In this document: positions 803 through 50,783 of the stretch, in pieces
How the letters are laid out: every line of letters begins with the position of its first letter
How positions within the stretch are numbered: the first letter of the stretch is position 1
DNA from: Pseudoflavonifractor phocaeensis
GTDB taxonomy: Bacteria > Bacillota > Clostridia > Oscillospirales > Oscillospiraceae
Assembly: GCF_021531375.1 (NCBI RefSeq)
Contig: NZ_JADYTU010000001.1
Location: forward strand, 1 to 64,000
Reading direction: 5' to 3'
DNA length: 64,000 nucleotides
The notes under the pieces: generated by a model
Database searches by the model: none
What the model was told of the DNA's origin: nothing
What the model saw: only the letters and a program-made list of their open reading frames with translations
Program-made: the position numbers and the translations under genes

Positions 803-886
803 ATAACATCTATGAGTATGTCTCCGCCTCCGGGGACCGGCGGGCGGAACCAATTGACATCCTGCGTCAGATATGAGGTGTGGCTT

Positions 887-3800
887 TTGTACTTAAAAGC
901 ATTGGAGATCCAGGGCTTCAAATCCTTCCCGGACAAGACGGTGCTGACCTTCGCCGAGGATATCACCGCCATCGTGGGGCCCAACGGGTCCGGCAAATCC
1001 AATATCTCCGACGCCATCCGCTGGGTTATGGGGGAGCAGTCCACCCGGGCCCTCCGGGGCGGCAAGATGGAGGACGTGATCTTCGGCGGCACCGCCAAGC
1101 GCAAGCAGACGGGCTACGCCGAGGTATCTCTGGTGCTGGACAACACCTCTCATATCTTCGACATGGAGGAGTCCGAGGTGATGGTCACCCGGCGGTACTA
1201 CCGCTCCGGCGAGAGCGAGTACTATATCAACCGCCGTTCCGTCCGGCTGAAGGACGTCAATGAGCTGTTCATGGACACGGGCCTGGGCCGGGAGGGCTAC
1301 TCCATCATCGGCCAGGGCAAGATCGACGAAATTTTGTCCGTCAAGTCCTCCGACCGCCGGGAGGTCTTTGAGGAGGCCGCCGGCATCTCCCGCTACCGCC
1401 ACCGGAAGGAGGAGGCCGAGCGGAAGCTGGAGCGCACCGACGAGAATCTGGTGCGGGTCAACGACAAGATCGCCGAGCTGGAGCTCCAGGTGGAGCCCCT
1501 GCGGGAGCAGAGCGAGAAGGCCCAAAAGTACCTGGTCCTCCGGGACGAGCTGCGGGGACTGGAGATCTCCGTCTGGCTGGACAGTCTGGAGCGGATCCGG
1601 GCCAACGCCATCAAGGTGGAGGCCGACTACCAGGAGGCCGCCCGCCAGCAGGCCGAAGCCAGGACCGCCCAGGAGAAGGCCTATGCCGCCGCCGAGCGCT
1701 ACTCGGAGGAAATGCGGGAGAAGGACGTGGAGGCGGACCGGCTCCGGTTTGAGATGCAGGGCCGGGAGGCGGCCGCCAAGGAGCTGGAGTCGGCCATCGC
1801 CGTGCTGAAAAGCAACATCCAGCACAATCTGGAGTCCGCCCAGCGGCTGAAGAGCGATCTGGAGCAGCAGGAGGGCCGGGAGGACTCCCTGGCCGCCCAG
1901 ATCGACCAGCGCCGCCGGCGGCTGGAGGAGATCGAGGGACAGCTGAAGGGGTCCCGGGAGGAGCTGGCCGCCAAGAGCGGCCAGGCGGAGGAGGCCGCCC
2001 GCTCGGCGGGCACCCTGGCCCGGGAGCTGGAGGAGCTGCGGCAGCGGGAGAATCTGAGCTCCGCCGACGCCGCCGAGGCCAAGGCCCTGCTGTCCGCCCT
2101 GGCCGCCGCCGCCCAGGAGGTGCTGGACCGGGACGAGACCGTCCGCCGGGAGGCCCATGAACTGGAGGAGCGCCTGGACCAGGCGAAACAGGAGGTCCGC
2201 GCCGCCAAGAAGCAGTACGATAACGCCGTGGAGGAGCGGGACGCCGCTCAAAACGTCATCAACGGCTACAGCCTCCGGGCCGAATCCCGCCGGAAAAGGG
2301 CGGAGCAGATGAAGGACCGCCAGGTGAAGCTGCAAATGGAGGAGAATGCCCTGGCCTCCCGGATCAAGCTGCTCTCCGAGATGGAGAAGGTCCACGAGGG
2401 CTACTCCAAGGCGGTGAAGCTGGTCATGGGAGAGGCCCAGCGGGGGACGCTGAAAAACATCCACGGCCCGGTGGCCGACCTGCTGAAGGTGCCCGACCGG
2501 TACACCGTGGCAATTGAGACCGCCCTGGGCGGGGCCATGCAGAACATCGTGGTGGACCGGGAGGAGGACGGCAAAGCCGTCATCAACTATCTGAAGCGCC
2601 GGGACGGGGGGCGCGCCACCATCCTGCCCATCAGCTCCATCCGCCCGGGCGAGCTGCGGGAGGGAGCCAGCCTCCGGCGGGAGCCCGGCTTTGTGGGAGT
2701 GGGGGATCAGCTGATCTCCTTCGACCCCAGATATCAAAACGTATTTTCCAACCTTTTGGGCCGTGTGGCCGTTATGGAGGACCTGGACTCCGCCATCGCC
2801 GCCGCCCGGAAGTACAGCTATAAATTCCGCATCGTCACGCTGGACGGCCAGGTGCTCAACCCCGGCGGCTCCATGACCGGCGGCTCCGCCAGCCGCAGCG
2901 CCGGCATCCTGAGCCGGGCCAACGAGCTGGAGCGGCTCAATCAGCAGATCGTGGGCGTCCGGGACCAGGGGGCGGAGGCCGCCCGGGCCCTGGCCGAGGC
3001 GGAGCGGGAGTCCACCGCCGCCCGCTATGAGCTGGAGACCGCCCAGGGACAGCTGCGGATGTGGGAGGACGCCATTTTGAAGGCCGAAGCCCTGCTGTCC
3101 CATTGCCGCAGTGTGGCCGCCGATCTGGAGCGCCAGCAGGAGGGCCAGCGGGCCGAGTTGGAGCAGCTGAAGGGCCGCTCCGCCCAGATCGAGAAAGACA
3201 CCCAGAGCGCCCGGGAACGCATCCGGGAACTGGAGGGGGCCGCCGCCGCCCTGAAAAGCGAGGCGGAGGGCAAGGCCAGAGGCCAGACCGACCTGCAGGA
3301 GCGGTCCGCCCGCATCGCCCGGGAGGTGGCCGAGGTCAACGCCGCCCTGGCCGCGCTGGAGGCAGAGCGGGAGACCATCCGGTCCGGCCTGAGCGAGCTG
3401 GAGGAATTGAAGGCCAGCATCGCCGGGGACCGGGACCAGAGCCAGGCCCGCATGGCGGACTACCAGGCCGAAAACGCGGACTTTGCCCGGACCATCGGGG
3501 AGAAGGAGGCGCAGCTGGCCGCCATCCAGGCGGAGAACCGGGACCGCTCCGACGCCGTTGCACAGCTGAACCGGGAGAAGCTGGAGCTGGAGGGCCTGCG
3601 TACCAGGGCCGCCAGAGAGAGCCAGAGCCGGAACGAGGAGCTGCTGCGCATCGGGGGCGAGGTCTCCCGGCTGGAGCAGAAGAAGGTGTCCGCGTCCATG
3701 GAGGAAAAGCAGCTGCTGGATAAGCTGTGGGAAAACTACGAGCTGTCCCACGAGGCCGCCAAGCAGCAGCGGGTGGAGATCGAGTCGGTCCAGAAGGCCG

Positions 3801-4459
3801 GCCGGCGCATCGGAGAGCTGAAGCGGGGCATCTCCGCCCTTGGCCATGTGAACGTGGGGGCCATCGAGGAGTTCCAGCGGGTCAACGAGCGGTATACCTA
3901 CCTTACTGACCAGCGGGACGACGTGGACCGGGCCAAGAAGGAGCTGGAGGAGATCATCGCCAACATCACCGGCGAGATGAAGACCATCTTCGCCCGGGAG
4001 TTCCAGACTATCAACGAGGCCTTCGGCCAGACCTTCCTGGAGCTGTTCGGAGGCGGAAAGGCCACCCTGGAGCTGGAGGACCCCAACGATATCCTGAACT
4101 GCGGCATCGAGATCAAGGTCCAGCCCCCGGGCAAGGCTTTGAAGATCATTTCCCTGCTGTCCGGCGGCGAGAAGGCCTTTGTGGCCATCGCCCTGTACTT
4201 CGCCATTTTGAAGGTCCGCCCCACTCCCTTCGTGGTCATGGACGAGATCGAAGCCGCCCTGGACGACAACAACGTGGTCCGCTTCGCCCGGTATATGCGG
4301 AGCATGGCGGAAAAGACCCAGTTCATCGTCATCACCCACCGCCGGGGCACCATGGAGGAAGCCGACGTCCTCTACGGCGTCACCATGCAGGAACAGGGCG
4401 TGTCAAGAATGCTGACCATCAACCTGAATGATGTGGAGAAGGAACTGAATATCCGGTAG
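887..4459 (+). CDS. smc: Chromosome partition protein SMC
   Basis: SMC is the ATPase core of the condensin-like SMC-ScpAB complex that compacts and segregates the chromosome. The protein is 1190 residues, the usual length. It shows Walker A GPNGSGKS (about 31-38), a long coiled coil, a hinge at about 520-680 with the glycine motifs NPGGSMTGG, a second coiled coil, the ABC signature LSGGEK (about 1090) and Walker B VVMDEIEAAL (about 1114). The TTG at 887 is chosen because it gives the family N-terminus YLKALEIQGFKSF and has GAGGTG 7 bases upstream; an upstream ATG at 812 would add 25 unrelated residues. A RAYT gene follows 11 bases after the stop, then ftsY two genes on, which is the common smc-ftsY order interrupted. 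Confidence 0.97.
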   Translation: MYLKALEIQGFKSFPDKTVLTFAEDITAIVGPNGSGKSNISDAIRWVMGEQSTRALRGGKMEDVIFGGTAKRKQTGYAEVSLVLDNTSHIFDMEESEVMVTRRYYRSGESEYYINRRSVRLKDVNELFMDTGLGREGYSIIGQGKIDEILSVKSSDRREVFEEAAGISRYRHRKEEAERKLERTDENLVRVNDKIAELELQVEPLREQSEKAQKYLVLRDELRGLEISVWLDSLERIRANAIKVEADYQEAARQQAEARTAQEKAYAAAERYSEEMREKDVEADRLRFEMQGREAAAKELESAIAVLKSNIQHNLESAQRLKSDLEQQEGREDSLAAQIDQRRRRLEEIEGQLKGSREELAAKSGQAEEAARSAGTLARELEELRQRENLSSADAAEAKALLSALAAAAQEVLDRDETVRREAHELEERLDQAKQEVRAAKKQYDNAVEERDAAQNVINGYSLRAESRRKRAEQMKDRQVKLQMEENALASRIKLLSEMEKVHEGYSKAVKLVMGEAQRGTLKNIHGPVADLLKVPDRYTVAIETALGGAMQNIVVDREEDGKAVINYLKRRDGGRATILPISSIRPGELREGASLRREPGFVGVGDQLISFDPRYQNVFSNLLGRVAVMEDLDSAIAAARKYSYKFRIVTLDGQVLNPGGSMTGGSASRSAGILSRANELERLNQQIVGVRDQGAEAARALAEAERESTAARYELETAQGQLRMWEDAILKAEALLSHCRSVAADLERQQEGQRAELEQLKGRSAQIEKDTQSARERIRELEGAAAALKSEAEGKARGQTDLQERSARIAREVAEVNAALAALEAERETIRSGLSELEELKASIAGDRDQSQARMADYQAENADFARTIGEKEAQLAAIQAENRDRSDAVAQLNREKLELEGLRTRAARESQSRNEELLRIGGEVSRLEQKKVSASMEEKQLLDKLWENYELSHEAAKQQRVEIESVQKAGRRIGELKRGISALGHVNVGAIEEFQRVNERYTYLTDQRDDVDRAKKELEEIIANITGEMKTIFAREFQTINEAFGQTFLELFGGGKATLELEDPNDILNCGIEIKVQPPGKALKIISLLSGGEKAFVAIALYFAILKVRPTPFVVMDEIEAALDDNNVVRFARYMRSMAEKTQFIVITHRRGTMEEADVLYGVTMQEQGVSRMLTINLNDVEKELNIR

Positions 4460-4470
4460 GAGAACATACG

Positions 4471-4998
4471 ATGGAACTTCCGGTACGAAAGCGTGTCCGG
4501 CTGAAAGAATACGATTACAGCAGTCCAGGGGCATATTTTATTACGATTTGTACCCAGGGACGGCAATGCCTCTTTCCCTTTCCCGTAGGGGCGGCCCCAT
4601 GTGGCCGCCCGAATCCCGCGCGGGAGATTGCCGAAGAATGGCTGGAAAAACTGCCGGGTAAATACCCGGGCGTATGCTTGGAAAAATATGTGGTCATGCC
4701 CAATCATGTCCATTTGATTCTGCGGATCGCGTCCCAACAGGAAACGGGCGGCCACATGGGGCCGCCCCTACAAGAAATGTTAGATTGGTATAAGACCATG
4801 ACGACCAATGCCTATATCCGGGCGGTAAAATCCGGTATATTGCCGCCCTTTGCAAGACGGGTTTGGCAAAGAGGGTATTATGAGCACATAATACGAAATG
4901 AACGGGACTACTTGGAAATCTGGCAATACATCGACCAAAACCCCGCCCGGTGGGGCGAGGATGAATATTACGCGGAAAACGCGGGAGGTGCCCCTTGA
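4471..4998 (+). CDS. REP-associated tyrosine transposase (RAYT, Y1/TnpA_REP family)
   Basis: This 175-residue HUH single-strand endonuclease belongs to the IS200/IS605-like Y1 superfamily, the RAYTs that act on REP palindromes. Visible motifs are SPGAYFITICT (first strand), MPNHVHLI (about residue 73, the HUH metal-binding pair), and a C-terminal YYEHIIRNERDYLEIWQYIDQNP block that carries the candidate catalytic tyrosine. AGGAGA precedes the ATG. The gene sits 11 bases after smc and its stop overlaps the TTG of the next gene, so it appears to be read within the smc-ftsY transcript. Oddly, two 27-nt inverted repeats, each a GTAG-headed hairpin, are part of the reading frame (residues about 39-47 and 92-100). 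The length is normal, so the enzyme may be active. Confidence 0.9.
   Translation: MELPVRKRVRLKEYDYSSPGAYFITICTQGRQCLFPFPVGAAPCGRPNPAREIAEEWLEKLPGKYPGVCLEKYVVMPNHVHLILRIASQQETGGHMGPPLQEMLDWYKTMTTNAYIRAVKSGILPPFARRVWQRGYYEHIIRNERDYLEIWQYIDQNPARWGEDEYYAENAGGAP
4585..4611 (+). repeat. REP-like hairpin inside the RAYT gene, copy 1
   Basis: The unit begins with the tetranucleotide GTAG and continues as an imperfect palindrome: GGGCGGCC, a short loop around CATG, then GGCCGCCC. It is 27 bases (nine codons, in frame). Its exact reverse complement lies at 4745-4771, and a copy with one mismatch lies at 32946-32972. GTAG heads are characteristic of REPs recognised by RAYT proteins. Confidence 0.8.
4745..4771 (-). 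repeat. REP-like hairpin inside the RAYT gene, copy 2 (inverted)
   Basis: This is a perfect 27/27 reverse complement of 4585-4611, placed 133 bases downstream in the same coding sequence. Together the two form a BIME-like inverted pair that could fold either as two separate hairpins or as one long 27-bp stem in single-stranded DNA or mRNA. Confidence 0.8.
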
Positions 4999-5627: not shown

Positions 5628-6497
5628 ATGGGTTTTTTTGACAAACTGAAAAAGATCAATATTTTCGCCAGCTTCGGCTCGGAGCTGACCGACGACTTCT
5701 ACGACGAGCTGGAGGAGTCCCTGATCCTGGCGGACACCGGCATGGACGTGACCCTGGAGCTGGTGGAGGAGCTGCGCCGCCGGGTACGCGCCGAGGGCGT
5801 CAAGACCGTGGAGGAGGCCCGCTCCTGCATGGTCCGGGTCATCGCCGAGGCTCTGGAGGCCGGAGAGCAGGGGCTGGACCTGTCCACCAAGCCCTCTGTG
5901 CTTCTGTTCATCGGGGTGAACGGCGTGGGCAAGACCACCACCATCGGCAAGATCGGCGCCCAGCTGAAGCACAGCGGCAAGAAGGTCCTCTTCTGCGCCG
6001 CCGACACCTTCCGGGCCGCCGCCGCCGAGCAGCTGACCATCTGGGCCGACCGGGCCGGAGTGGACATCATCAAGCAGCACGAGGGGGCCGACCCCGCCGC
6101 CGTGGTCTTTGACGCCACCTCCGCCGCCAAGGCCCGGAAGACCGACGTGGTGCTGGTGGACACAGCCGGACGGCTGCACAACAAGCAGAACCTGATGAAC
6201 GAGCTGAACAAGATCAGCCGGGTCATCGACCGGGAACTGCCCGGCTGTGCCCGGGAGACCCTGCTGGTGCTGGACGCCACCACCGGCCAGAACGGCCTGA
6301 TCCAGGCCAAGCAGTTCAAGGAGGCCGCCGGCATTACCGGCATTGTCCTGACCAAGCTGGACGGCACCGCCAAGGGCGGCATCGCCATCGCCATCGCTAA
6401 GGAGCTGGGCGTCCCCGTGAAGTACGCCGGGGTGGGCGAGGGCATCGACGATCTGAAGCCCTTTGACGCCGCTGAGTTTGCCCAGGCGCTGATCTGA
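5628..6497 (+). CDS. ftsY: Signal recognition particle receptor FtsY
   Basis: FtsY is the membrane-associated GTPase that receives SRP-ribosome complexes for co-translational insertion. The 289-residue protein has the NG domain with an N-terminal helical bundle, G1 GVNGVGKTTT (about 98), a G3 DTAGR (about 179) and a G4 TKLDGTAKGG (about 242). The acidic A domain seen in enterobacteria is absent, leaving a short amphipathic N-terminus (GFFDKLKKINIF) for membrane contact, as is usual in Firmicutes. GGAAAGG precedes the ATG. It is the last gene of the smc transcript; a GC hairpin (6498-6514) without a T tract follows. Confidence 0.97.
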   Translation: MGFFDKLKKINIFASFGSELTDDFYDELEESLILADTGMDVTLELVEELRRRVRAEGVKTVEEARSCMVRVIAEALEAGEQGLDLSTKPSVLLFIGVNGVGKTTTIGKIGAQLKHSGKKVLFCAADTFRAAAAEQLTIWADRAGVDIIKQHEGADPAAVVFDATSAAKARKTDVVLVDTAGRLHNKQNLMNELNKISRVIDRELPGCARETLLVLDATTGQNGLIQAKQFKEAAGITGIVLTKLDGTAKGGIAIAIAKELGVPVKYAGVGEGIDDLKPFDAAEFAQALI

Positions 6498-8832: not shown

Positions 8833-9136
8833 ATTTTAGTTTATGTGTTCAGTTGAAGGAGTGCGTATAAAGCCCCCTTTCGCAAAAGGGGGTGGCCCGA
8901 AGGGCCGGGGGATTTTTCCTTCAGGAAAAGAAATGCTTTAAAATATAGAAAGAAAACCCTCAGTCAGCCTTCGGCTGACAGCGTCCCTACCTCCTTTGGC
9001 CTTCGGCCATTTCCCCCCGACGGGGGGAATCGTCCCCCGCCGTCCGACGGCTGCCATTTTGGCGGCGGCCCCAAGGGGCCGCCCTACGGGCGGGGCGTCC
9101 CCGACGCCCCATAATACATCCATAAACTAAAATTTA
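8830..9136. mobile_element. MITE-like element A with TAAATTTTAG/CTAAAATTTA inverted ends
   Basis: This 307-base gene-free element fills the gap between yhbY and nadD. Its ends (TAAATTTTAGTTTATG at 8830 and the inverted CATAAACTAAAATTTA at 9121-9136) form a 16-base terminal inverted repeat. The interior is a chain of hairpins (CCCCCTTT/AAAGGGGG, GGCCCGAAGGGCC, GTCAGCC/GGCTGAC and others). About 140 bases at the right (8995-9136) are nearly identical to the right end of the element at 50522-50783, apart from an insertion there. It encodes no transposase. The element begins and ends with TA, which would suit a mariner-type TA target, but I cannot prove a duplication. Confidence 0.75.
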
Positions 9137-32236: not shown

Positions 32237-33090
32237 TAAATTTTAGTTTGTCTGAGGATTTCGCCAGCGGGCGGGACGGGAGTTAAGACGGGGGATGTTT
32301 CGCCCTGCGGGGCGAGTTCCTTTGCCCGCGGCGGCAAAGGAACCAAAACGCCGCCGGGGACGGCGGCAGGGAAAGCGCAAAAAATTTCCGGCGTGGGAAA
32401 TTTTTTCTGCGCTTTTGTGCCGCCTCTCCCCGGACCCCCATTACGGGAGAGCAGGCGGCCTTGCGTTAATCTCAGATCGCAAAATGTGAGAGCGCTCACA
32501 CCGCCTTTTGCTTTGCAAAATGGAGAAGATTTCACGGGGGATAAGCAATGCAGCCCGCCTCGATGGCGGTAAAGACTGCCAGCAGTTACTTCTTACCCAC
32601 CTGGCCCGCCGGGGCCGCCCGAAGGTGCTCCGTTTTTGAATTGACCTGATAGAAAGGGAGAAACTGGCAGCTAAGGGGATCGCACCCCGCGATTGTTCAC
32701 TCAGAGGCGCGCTCTTCACAAGGTGAAGCAGACGCCAATTTCACTGGCGCAGAGCGGCAGCGGGCGGGAATGAGAGGGGTATCCCGGCTTTTGCCCGCGC
32801 CGAACAGTATTCTGCATATTCTTTGATGGCTCCCCATGGGGACCGGGGCCGAAGCCCCGGAGATTTTTTGGGTACTTTTGTATCTCTACAAAAGTACCTC
32901 GCCCGGGGGCGAAATATCCCTTCGTCCAAACTTCCGTCCCGACTGCGGGCGGCCACGTGGGGCCGCCCCTACAATTCTAACATACAAACCTGCTAGCCCG
33001 CCGCAGCCCCAGTCCCTCGTACGCCCCCAGTGTGCGCACTGGGCCACCTTCTAAAAGGGAGAAGGCTTTAGGCAGAGAAACTAAAATTTA
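32237..33090. mobile_element. Composite MITE-like element C, 0.85 kb, gene-free
   Basis: The ends TAAATTTTAGTTTGTC (32237) and CTAAAATTTA (33081-33090) are inverted and match the other elements. The 854-base interior, between the YitT gene and parC, has no plausible gene. It is a mosaic of palindromes: GGTACTTTTGTA-TCTC-TACAAAAGTACC (32871-32898), GGGGC/GCCCC (about 32845), CCCAGTG-TGCG-CACTGGG (33026-33043), and a 27-nt REP unit (32946-32972). AT-rich and GC-rich blocks alternate sharply, so it may be several repeats nested in one another. The right end is 4 bases from the parC stop codon. Confidence 0.6.
32946..32972 (-). repeat. REP-like hairpin, intergenic copy
   Basis: It matches 26 of 27 bases of the repeat inside the RAYT gene (same orientation as 4745-4771) and ends in GTAG on the − strand. 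Its occurrence outside the transposase gene supports a mobile REP family. Confidence 0.75.
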
Positions 33091-50524: not shown

Positions 50525-50783
50525 ATTTTAGTTTATCGTTTCATGTAGGGTAAGGGCTTGGTAGGGCGGGGGCTTATCCCTCCCCCTTTTTGCCTTCGGC
50601 CATTTCCCCCCGACGGGGGGAATCGTCCCCCGCCGTCCGACGGCTGCCATTTTGGCGGCGGCCCCAAGGGGCCGCCCTACGGGCGGGGCGTCCAGAGGCC
50701 GCCCCTTACGAAGCCATATTGTAAACCGTGCGTAGGGGGCGGCGTCCCCGACGCCCCATAATACATCCATAACCTAAAATTTA
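50522..50783. mobile_element. MITE-like element B
   Basis: The element runs from TAAATTTTAGTTTATC (50522) to CTAAAATTTA (50774-50783). The left part (to about 50590) matches the fragment at 1-72 and the right part matches element A (8995-9136). Compared with A it has an insertion of about 54 bases (about 50693-50746) containing another GTAGGG palindrome. No coding capacity. It begins on the asnA stop codon and ends 35 bases before the next start. Confidence 0.75.

Follow-up and report, generated by a model that had tools for sequence, protein, structure and literature searches.

The window analysed here, a stretch of 64,000 nucleotides from Pseudoflavonifractor phocaeensis, represents contig C11 of a 2.28-Mb genome (G000) and contains, in this order, smc (812-4459, plus strand), a gene for a REP-associated tyrosine transposase (RAYT) of the HUH/Y1 type (4471-4998, plus strand, 175 aa), a small ORF, and ftsY (5628-6497, plus strand). 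The smc-RAYT order is also found at two homologous loci, namely that of Pseudoflavonifractor capillosus (L063), where ftsY again lies downstream, and L064. The HUH motif NHVH (residues 78-81) is encoded at 4702-4713 (plus strand) and Y153, within YIDQNP, at 4927-4929 (plus strand). Y153 is presumed to be the catalytic tyrosine by analogy with the RAYT/IS200 Y1 transposases; it is unchanged in 42 of 42 homologues, whose alignment has R6, R10, H79, H81, K108, and R142 among its other invariant residues.

The assignment of the gene is based on its ORF, profile searches, the fold, and these invariant residues. The protein scores 20.2 bits against Pfam Y1_Tnp (PF01797) and 62.1 bits against NCBIfam REP_Tyr_transpos (NF047646), below the curated cut-offs of 23 and 80, respectively, which are naming thresholds of the library and no trait of the protein; at E ≤ 1e-3, NF047646 recognises every one of the 42 aligned homologues. 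A profile built from the 42 homologues matches the solved RAYT-REP complex 4ER8 (E 1.3e-10), the title of which names a RAYT bound to a REP hairpin, and the same entry is the top Foldseek match (E 1.6e-7) of the AlphaFold model (mean pLDDT 82). The protein thus has the HUH fold with a single catalytic Tyr (Y1) and is closest to 4ER8 by both profile and model, yet only 20% identical to it; we take the organism of 4ER8 to be E. coli (TnpAREP). The earlier note had called the gene a RAYT, and although the curated cut-offs are missed, the first rank of 4ER8 in both searches bears this out; we file it as a divergent RAYT on the basis of fold, motifs, and REP association. An ordinary autonomous insertion sequence was considered and rejected: the genome has no multiple near-identical copies of the gene, only a paralogue of 40% identity and an antisense match across the arms described below, and the smc neighbour is the same in two relatives (L063 and L064). 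The antisense match is to the RAYT's own protein (G000:C11:4580-4780, minus strand; 47% identity over residues 36-102) and arises because the inverted arms read alike in both directions.

The RAYT gene holds GTAGGGGCGGCCCCATGTGGCCGCCC twice, at 4585-4610 on the plus strand (internal REP 1) and, as the exact reverse complement, at 4746-4771 on the minus strand (internal REP 2, with its GTAG foot at 4771). The earlier note had described perfect 27-nt reverse complements at 4585-4611 (plus) and 4745-4771 (minus), each a GTAG-footed hairpin, together with a distant copy matching at 26 of 27 positions (32946-32972), and all of this was reproduced. Together the arms make up a 27-nt inverted repeat without a mismatch, its halves separated by 133 nt (0.00 expected in shuffles), and each folds into GTAG followed by an 8-bp stem (GGGCGGCC/GGCCGCCC) with a 6-nt loop (about -11 kcal/mol as DNA, z -2.6 to -3.5). 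The GTAG feet of both point outward. A 28-nt arm pattern with ≤3 mismatches matches the window at 4584-4611, 4745-4772, and 32946-32973, i.e., three times against 0.00 expected (100 shuffles); at this threshold the window has only the two arms and the distant site, and no REP flanks the RAYT ORF. The distant site is an extragenic copy of the same family (32947-32972, minus strand) that differs by 1 nt and is covered by no ORF of at least 80 aa. Each arm had also been said to be exactly nine codons in frame, which is correct for arm 1, equal to codons 39-47 (VGAAPCGRP), but not for arm 2, which runs from the second base of codon 92 into codon 101 (TGGHMGPPLQ) and is thus out of register. In the model, residues 39-47 are part of the loop between strand E20-28 and the first helix, H49-64, and residues 92-101 fall in the loop between E79-86 and H100-120, of which residues 100-101 begin the helix. 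The segment between the REPs (4611-4745, plus strand) encodes the first helix, two strands, and the HUH motif.

The distribution of this arrangement was assessed in 150 homologous loci (148 distinct; the duplicates L046/L102 and L120/L124 all have no straddling pair), one of 151 having been dropped because no HUH motif was in reach. A direct motif search detected a straddling pair, with GTAGGG (plus) before and CCCTAC (plus) after the HUH codons, in 96 of the 150 loci, a count that may over-state the frequency because the homologue query included arm-coded residues. The pair was present in 36 of 79 loci from the all-genomes set (the best 80 of at least 554 relatives), in 58 of 69 from the same order (a sample of 29 loci beyond the own genome and 40 further entries, the rest, mostly partial or lower-scoring, being left out), and in both loci of the own genome. 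A separate measure, the arm score, rates the complementarity of the 170 nt preceding the HUH codons to the 190 nt that follow; its distribution is two-peaked, and it reaches at least 13 in 101 of 150 loci, 93 of them shared with the 96 from the motif search. Hairpins of at least 5 bp occur in both arms of 90 of the 96 pair loci, a filter that favours intact stems; in these 90 loci the outer span of the pair is 158-250 nt, and REP length is equal between the arms in 89. The feet are outward in 96 of the 101 loci with an arm score of at least 13, inward in one (L139), and unassigned in four. The earlier supposition of a conserved design thus applies to the 96 loci but not to the 54 of 150 without a straddling pair, in which the protein manages without it.

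Several of the latter loci have REPs elsewhere. In the other ARRANGEMENTS, found in 17 of 150 loci, two REPs (plus, then minus) both lie between HUH and Y; these loci belong mostly to other phyla and usually have two unequal variants. In L067, L068, and L100, one REP is inside the gene and the other lies some 270-285 nt upstream of HUH, where it is probably no longer within the ORF, whereas L102/L046 (one sequence), L107, L052, and L179 have flanking REPs and none inside; in some further loci lacking the straddling pair, no REP was found. Since REPs are thus inside, flanking, or differently placed, a REP pair often accompanies the RAYT gene, and its place varies. Deviating geometries were observed in L139, where the pair straddles HUH with feet inward, and in L044, where a minus-then-plus pair lies between HUH and Y. 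The RAYT of L173 (G152:C15) has one internal REP and is surrounded by ten upstream and four downstream REPs in alternating orientation, all of which represent a few close variants.

The two arms vary between homologues as reverse complements of each other, which the earlier note had proposed to check. The mean arm match is 23.1 within genes and 9.3 after re-pairing (sd 0.32, maximum 10.7 of 10000 permutations; 101 genes), where the permutations treat genes as independent. When only one gene is taken from each arm cluster (22 clusters at 3 edits), 21 of the 22 arms match their own partner strictly better than any other; finer clustering lowers this to 27 of 37 and 39 of 55, since near-identical families then compete. 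The 90 hairpin-bearing genes have 63 distinct arm-1 sequences. Among the 89 pairs of equal length, the arms are identical in 42 and different in 47, and the unequal pairs contain 59 loop differences and 32 stem pairs that differ between the arms (in 26 genes). Compensation, with both sides changed and Watson-Crick pairing in both arms, accounts for 26 of these 32 stem differences, and six are otherwise. In a protein tree built without the arm residues, which has few columns and is poorly resolved (37 of 97 inner branches are open), the REP loop types often follow the clades of the proteins. Comparison of the window gene with L063 and L064 gave arm identities of 52/52, 50/52, and 50/52, with 17 of 17 third positions in the arms unchanged; outside the arms, identity is 67-68% overall and 49-52% at third positions. 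Thirty-one gene pairs picked for alike arms have 95% identity in the arms, a value that is partly due to the selection and no independent evidence, and 52% at third positions between the arms, which shows the drift of the gene. These comparisons indicate that it is at the nucleotide level that the hairpins of the pair stay intact, and that pair and protein change together. A separate observation concerns L063 (P. capillosus An827; gene 1501-2022), which has an in-frame stop before HUH, both REP arms still being perfect.

At ≤1 mismatch, the arm REP family has 12 copies in G000, two of them inside the RAYT gene; of the 61 other RAYT-bearing genomes of the order, G048 has one copy and the remaining 60 have none. 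Outside the RAYT gene, no family copy was seen in a recognisable gene of G000, and several lie in mechanically called ORFs. The core REP pattern has 10 exact matches in G000 and nine more with 1-2 mismatches; at ≤3 mismatches there are 59 matches, many of which represent another palindrome, against eight for the reversed pattern. The genome encodes a second RAYT, the paralogue at C66:13090-13599 (40% identity, one in-frame TGA), which bears its own, different REP pair (13204, plus; 13368, minus) belonging to a family of 30 copies, two of them internal. RAYT genes and dispersed GTAG REPs are therefore associated in G000.

Seven REP families were searched in 62 RAYT-bearing genomes. Copies outside the gene were found in 12 of 15 carrier cases against 40 of 419 non-carrier cases, where a carrier is a genome with a scored full-length RAYT locus, plus G061 (L191), fragments or partial matches in G141, G283, and G167 may add carriers, and genome completeness varies (98% for G061, 85% for G195, 47% for G147). 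The earlier claim that the gene bears sites matching the REPs of its genome is accordingly sustained for the 12-copy family in G000, but not for the three of 15 carrier cases in which the genome has no copy outside the gene. The fit between carriers and family copies is clear but not exclusive. For instance, the family of L042, L040, L059, and L156 numbers 24, 35, 88, and 16 copies, counting internal ones, in its four carriers, against 0-24 copies in the 58 other genomes, ten of which have matches (24 in G029), and the family of L051, L168, L159, and G061 is present in 17 of 62 genomes, including the non-carriers G195 (16 copies) and G060 (10). There are three copies of the G040 family in G040 (two internal) and 1-4 in three other genomes; three of the L144 family in the carrier G248 (two internal) and 1-3 in five others; and the L146/L148 family occurs in five of 62 genomes, with two copies in G147 (both internal), three in G210, and 2-3 in the others. 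In these three families, some non-carriers match or exceed the carriers in copy number. The L039/L037 family has two copies in G195 (both internal), eight in G048, and 22, 9, 4, 1, and 1 in five non-carriers, G242 having 22 copies and no detected full-length RAYT that bears the family. At ≤1 mismatch, G061 and G195 contain only the internal copies of their RAYT's family; a pair can thus persist without many REPs elsewhere in the genome, and on account of these two genomes we rejected the simple idea that an abundant pool had supplied the arms.

A search for traces of copy-out in the fetched flanks of the 90 hairpin-bearing loci revealed 20 extra REP copies in 18 of them and no other cognate REP (≤2 mismatches) in 72. 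Only the extra REP of L115 looks copied with coding flanks: the REP 3' of the RAYT gene in its genome G296 (L214, G296:C50, 1182-1206) has arm-1-like coding context on both sides. The two extra copies at L133 and the one at L145 resemble partial duplications of the gene, and the other 16 have no clear likeness to the gene context. The arms of L115 are different REPs, with cores GATTCACGAATC and GCATCACGATGC. An exact loop-type search of G296 yielded 33 copies, of which three are at the RAYT gene, 22 form 11 doublets, and eight are single; all 11 close doublets pair exactly the two arm variants of L115, within a search specific to one loop type, in which a doublet would go unnoticed if its partner were of another type. 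These hetero-doublets have their feet inward with 21-22 nt between them and occur in both orders, whereas the feet of the gene pair are outward, so that simple copying of the gene pair does not yield the doublets. The one doublet fetched from the genome of L105 has the same two variants, which are also the arms of L105, and the genome of L118 has three doublets (GATT/GCTT twice, GATT/GCAT once), the pattern having missed the downstream arm of L118. In G242, which has several RAYTs, a sample of 20 stretches (400 kb) contained 27 GTAGGG hairpins against 1, 1, 6, and 4 for control feet; its 12 close pairs are mixed in both family and orientation and do not repeat the hetero-doublet picture of G296. 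As judged from these sequences, the link between gene pair and doublets appears striking in one RAYT clade and may not be general.

REPs inside RAYT genes have already been published. For subclass 2.4, the text of Quentin 2018 describes REP insertions in the rayt gene, generally between HuH and Y and possibly of little impact, together with the motifs NH[IFV]H, WQ, and YIxNNP and a median HuH-Y distance of 88 aa (PMC6006769). As far as that description goes, the RAYT studied here has in common with subclass 2.4 the NHxH and WQ motifs, in-frame GTAG REPs inside the gene, and dispersed REPs, but it has YIDQNP in place of YIxNNP and an HUH-Y distance of about 74 aa. Arm 2 conforms to the published placement, whereas arm 1 sits before HUH; the 17 loci with both REPs between HUH and Y come closer to it. 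No mention of a straddling inverted pair or of covariation was found in the main text of PMC6006769, and no description of the straddling pair, the covariation, or the REPIN match was found in the literature searched, which lay mostly outside subscription papers and preprints; within this scope, the straddling pair and its coevolution appear to be new. In the REPtron, according to the text of Nunvar 2010, a rayt gene is flanked by two inverted REPs, as is also the E. coli rayt (PMC2817692). The present locus resembles that description in that an enzyme gene is tied to two inverted cognate REPs in a clade-specific manner, and differs in that the REPs are within the ORF rather than flanking it. 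Intragenic REPs and Rickettsia palindromic elements that keep the frame of coding genes are described in the text of Di Nocera 2013 (PMC3733652). These are likewise palindromic repeats preserving the frame; however, they affect varied genes at mostly varied sites, whereas here the enzyme's own gene is involved, at two fixed sites, in fixed orientation, and with coevolution.

We propose, with a probability of about one half, that the locus is a self-contained unit of an enzyme and its cognate sites, the internal pair being a resident substrate copy and the reservoir or seed of dispersed REPs. The RAYT's own recognition sites would be the two inverted REP hairpins, feet outward, in two surface loops flanking the HUH core, in effect a REPtron packed into its own reading frame. 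Whether inherited vertically or horizontally, enzyme and sites would stay linked by way of the resident pair, from which dispersed REPs and REPINs could be seeded. From the pair, its conservation, its covariation, and its match to genomic REPs, all evident at the sequence level, we infer that the RAYT recognises its internal REPs and that the pair may serve as a reservoir or seed. The reservoir role is favoured by the own family, with 12 copies in G000 and one in 61 other genomes, by the likewise paired second RAYT, and by the L115-type REP with arm-1 coding context on both sides, as copy-out would give; it is opposed by the family copies in G195 (16), G060 (10), G029 (24), and G242 (22), where no full-length bearer was detected. 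Perfect inverted repeats in a gene carry a risk of inversion and of hairpin instability, and their long retention therefore has to be explained, be it by selection or by the enzyme constantly renewing them. In a wider formulation, which we put forward more tentatively, the coding sequence would specify the enzyme and at the same time be the master copy of that enzyme's non-autonomous mobile DNA, with both (sometimes unequal) REPIN ends in frame and with specificity and sites evolving as one locus, whether selfish or domesticated.

Alternatively, though in our view less likely, REPs mobilised by the enzyme may have landed long ago in two tolerant loops and been updated by RAYT-driven or recombinational exchange with genomic REPs without any benefit to the gene, a view close to that of subclass 2.4 in the text of Quentin 2018 (PMC6006769). 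Neutral insertion followed by REP-to-REP conversion by the enzyme could also have made the arms alike. The passenger view would agree with the position of both arms in lower-confidence loops of the model, with the existence of homologues without arms, with the intragenic REPs of unrelated genes described in PMC3733652, and with the frequent presence of slightly different variants in the two arms (47 of 89), as if altered singly. However, the same two sites and orientation recur in 96 of 101 scored pairs, across 22 arm clusters, and the pair is kept in genomes where no other copy was found and in the 72 of 90 loci whose fetched flanks have no other cognate REP.

A feedback role, in which the RAYT would bind the REP hairpins in single-stranded DNA or mRNA of its own gene, or the arms would pair in the mRNA, and expression would thereby be limited, is doubtful in our judgement. 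The mRNA at 4560-4800 folds with a 27-bp duplex of the arms (MFE -119.6, z -7.2, none of 200 shuffles as stable), the outward-feet geometry and span of 158-250 nt are constant, and 4ER8 shows that a RAYT-REP hairpin complex exists. Against this, the stem differs between the arms in 26 of 89 pairs, which weakens the arm-arm duplex while the hairpins are mostly kept, so that the duplex itself is not what is kept. RAYTs are not known to bind RNA.

Selection on the arm-coded loop peptides, with the DNA repeats as a by-product, is highly improbable. The codon phases of arm 1 and arm 2 in the 90 genes are (0,1) in 57, (0,0) in 25, and (1,1) in eight, and a phase that would place TAG in frame is absent among them; arm 1 is therefore in phase 0 in 82 of 90, as peptide selection would have it, but arm 2 is divided between phase 1 (65 genes) and phase 0 (25). 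In addition, the arm-coded peptides differ between clades, stem changes are compensated, and the three closest genes do not differ at any of the 17 third positions in their arms; the two arm-2 phases and the unchanged third positions led us to reject this explanation. Many homologues come from metagenome assemblies, but chance or an assembly artefact has a negligible probability and was rejected, given the zero expectation in shuffles, the reversed-pattern controls (0 in all seven 62-genome searches; 8 against 59 in G000 at 3 mismatches), and the presence of the pair in an isolate genome (L063), a complete chromosome (L081), and a single-contig genome (G242).

Synonymous recoding of the two 26-nt sites makes the reservoir, feedback, and neutral models testable. 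Loci of this kind bear on the questions of where REPs originate and how a RAYT knows its REP; as each gene bears sites that appear to be its own cognate ones, each locus gives a labelled pair of enzyme and site, and together they provide a data set for the specificity code.

Further palindromic arrangements were observed. In L020 and L021, a CGCCCTAC lies beside a palindrome of the kind that the earlier note had placed in MITE-like elements. Another palindrome, TTGGCGGCGGCCCCAAGGGGCCGCCC, is present in the window at 9059-9084 (plus) and 50652-50677 (plus), with 26 exact copies listed in G000, where it is commoner than the REP; in places it adjoins REPs of the second family within composite elements (e.g., C14:17906/17935 and C65:26074/26103). 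A small tandem array with three direct REP copies at 71-nt spacing is located at G000:C31:15372-15539. Finally, feet-inward doublets at C5:29737/29819, C66:18601/18667, and C66:27016/27075 each join a REP of the RAYT family 1 with a REP of family 2 and look as if the sites of two enzymes had been joined.
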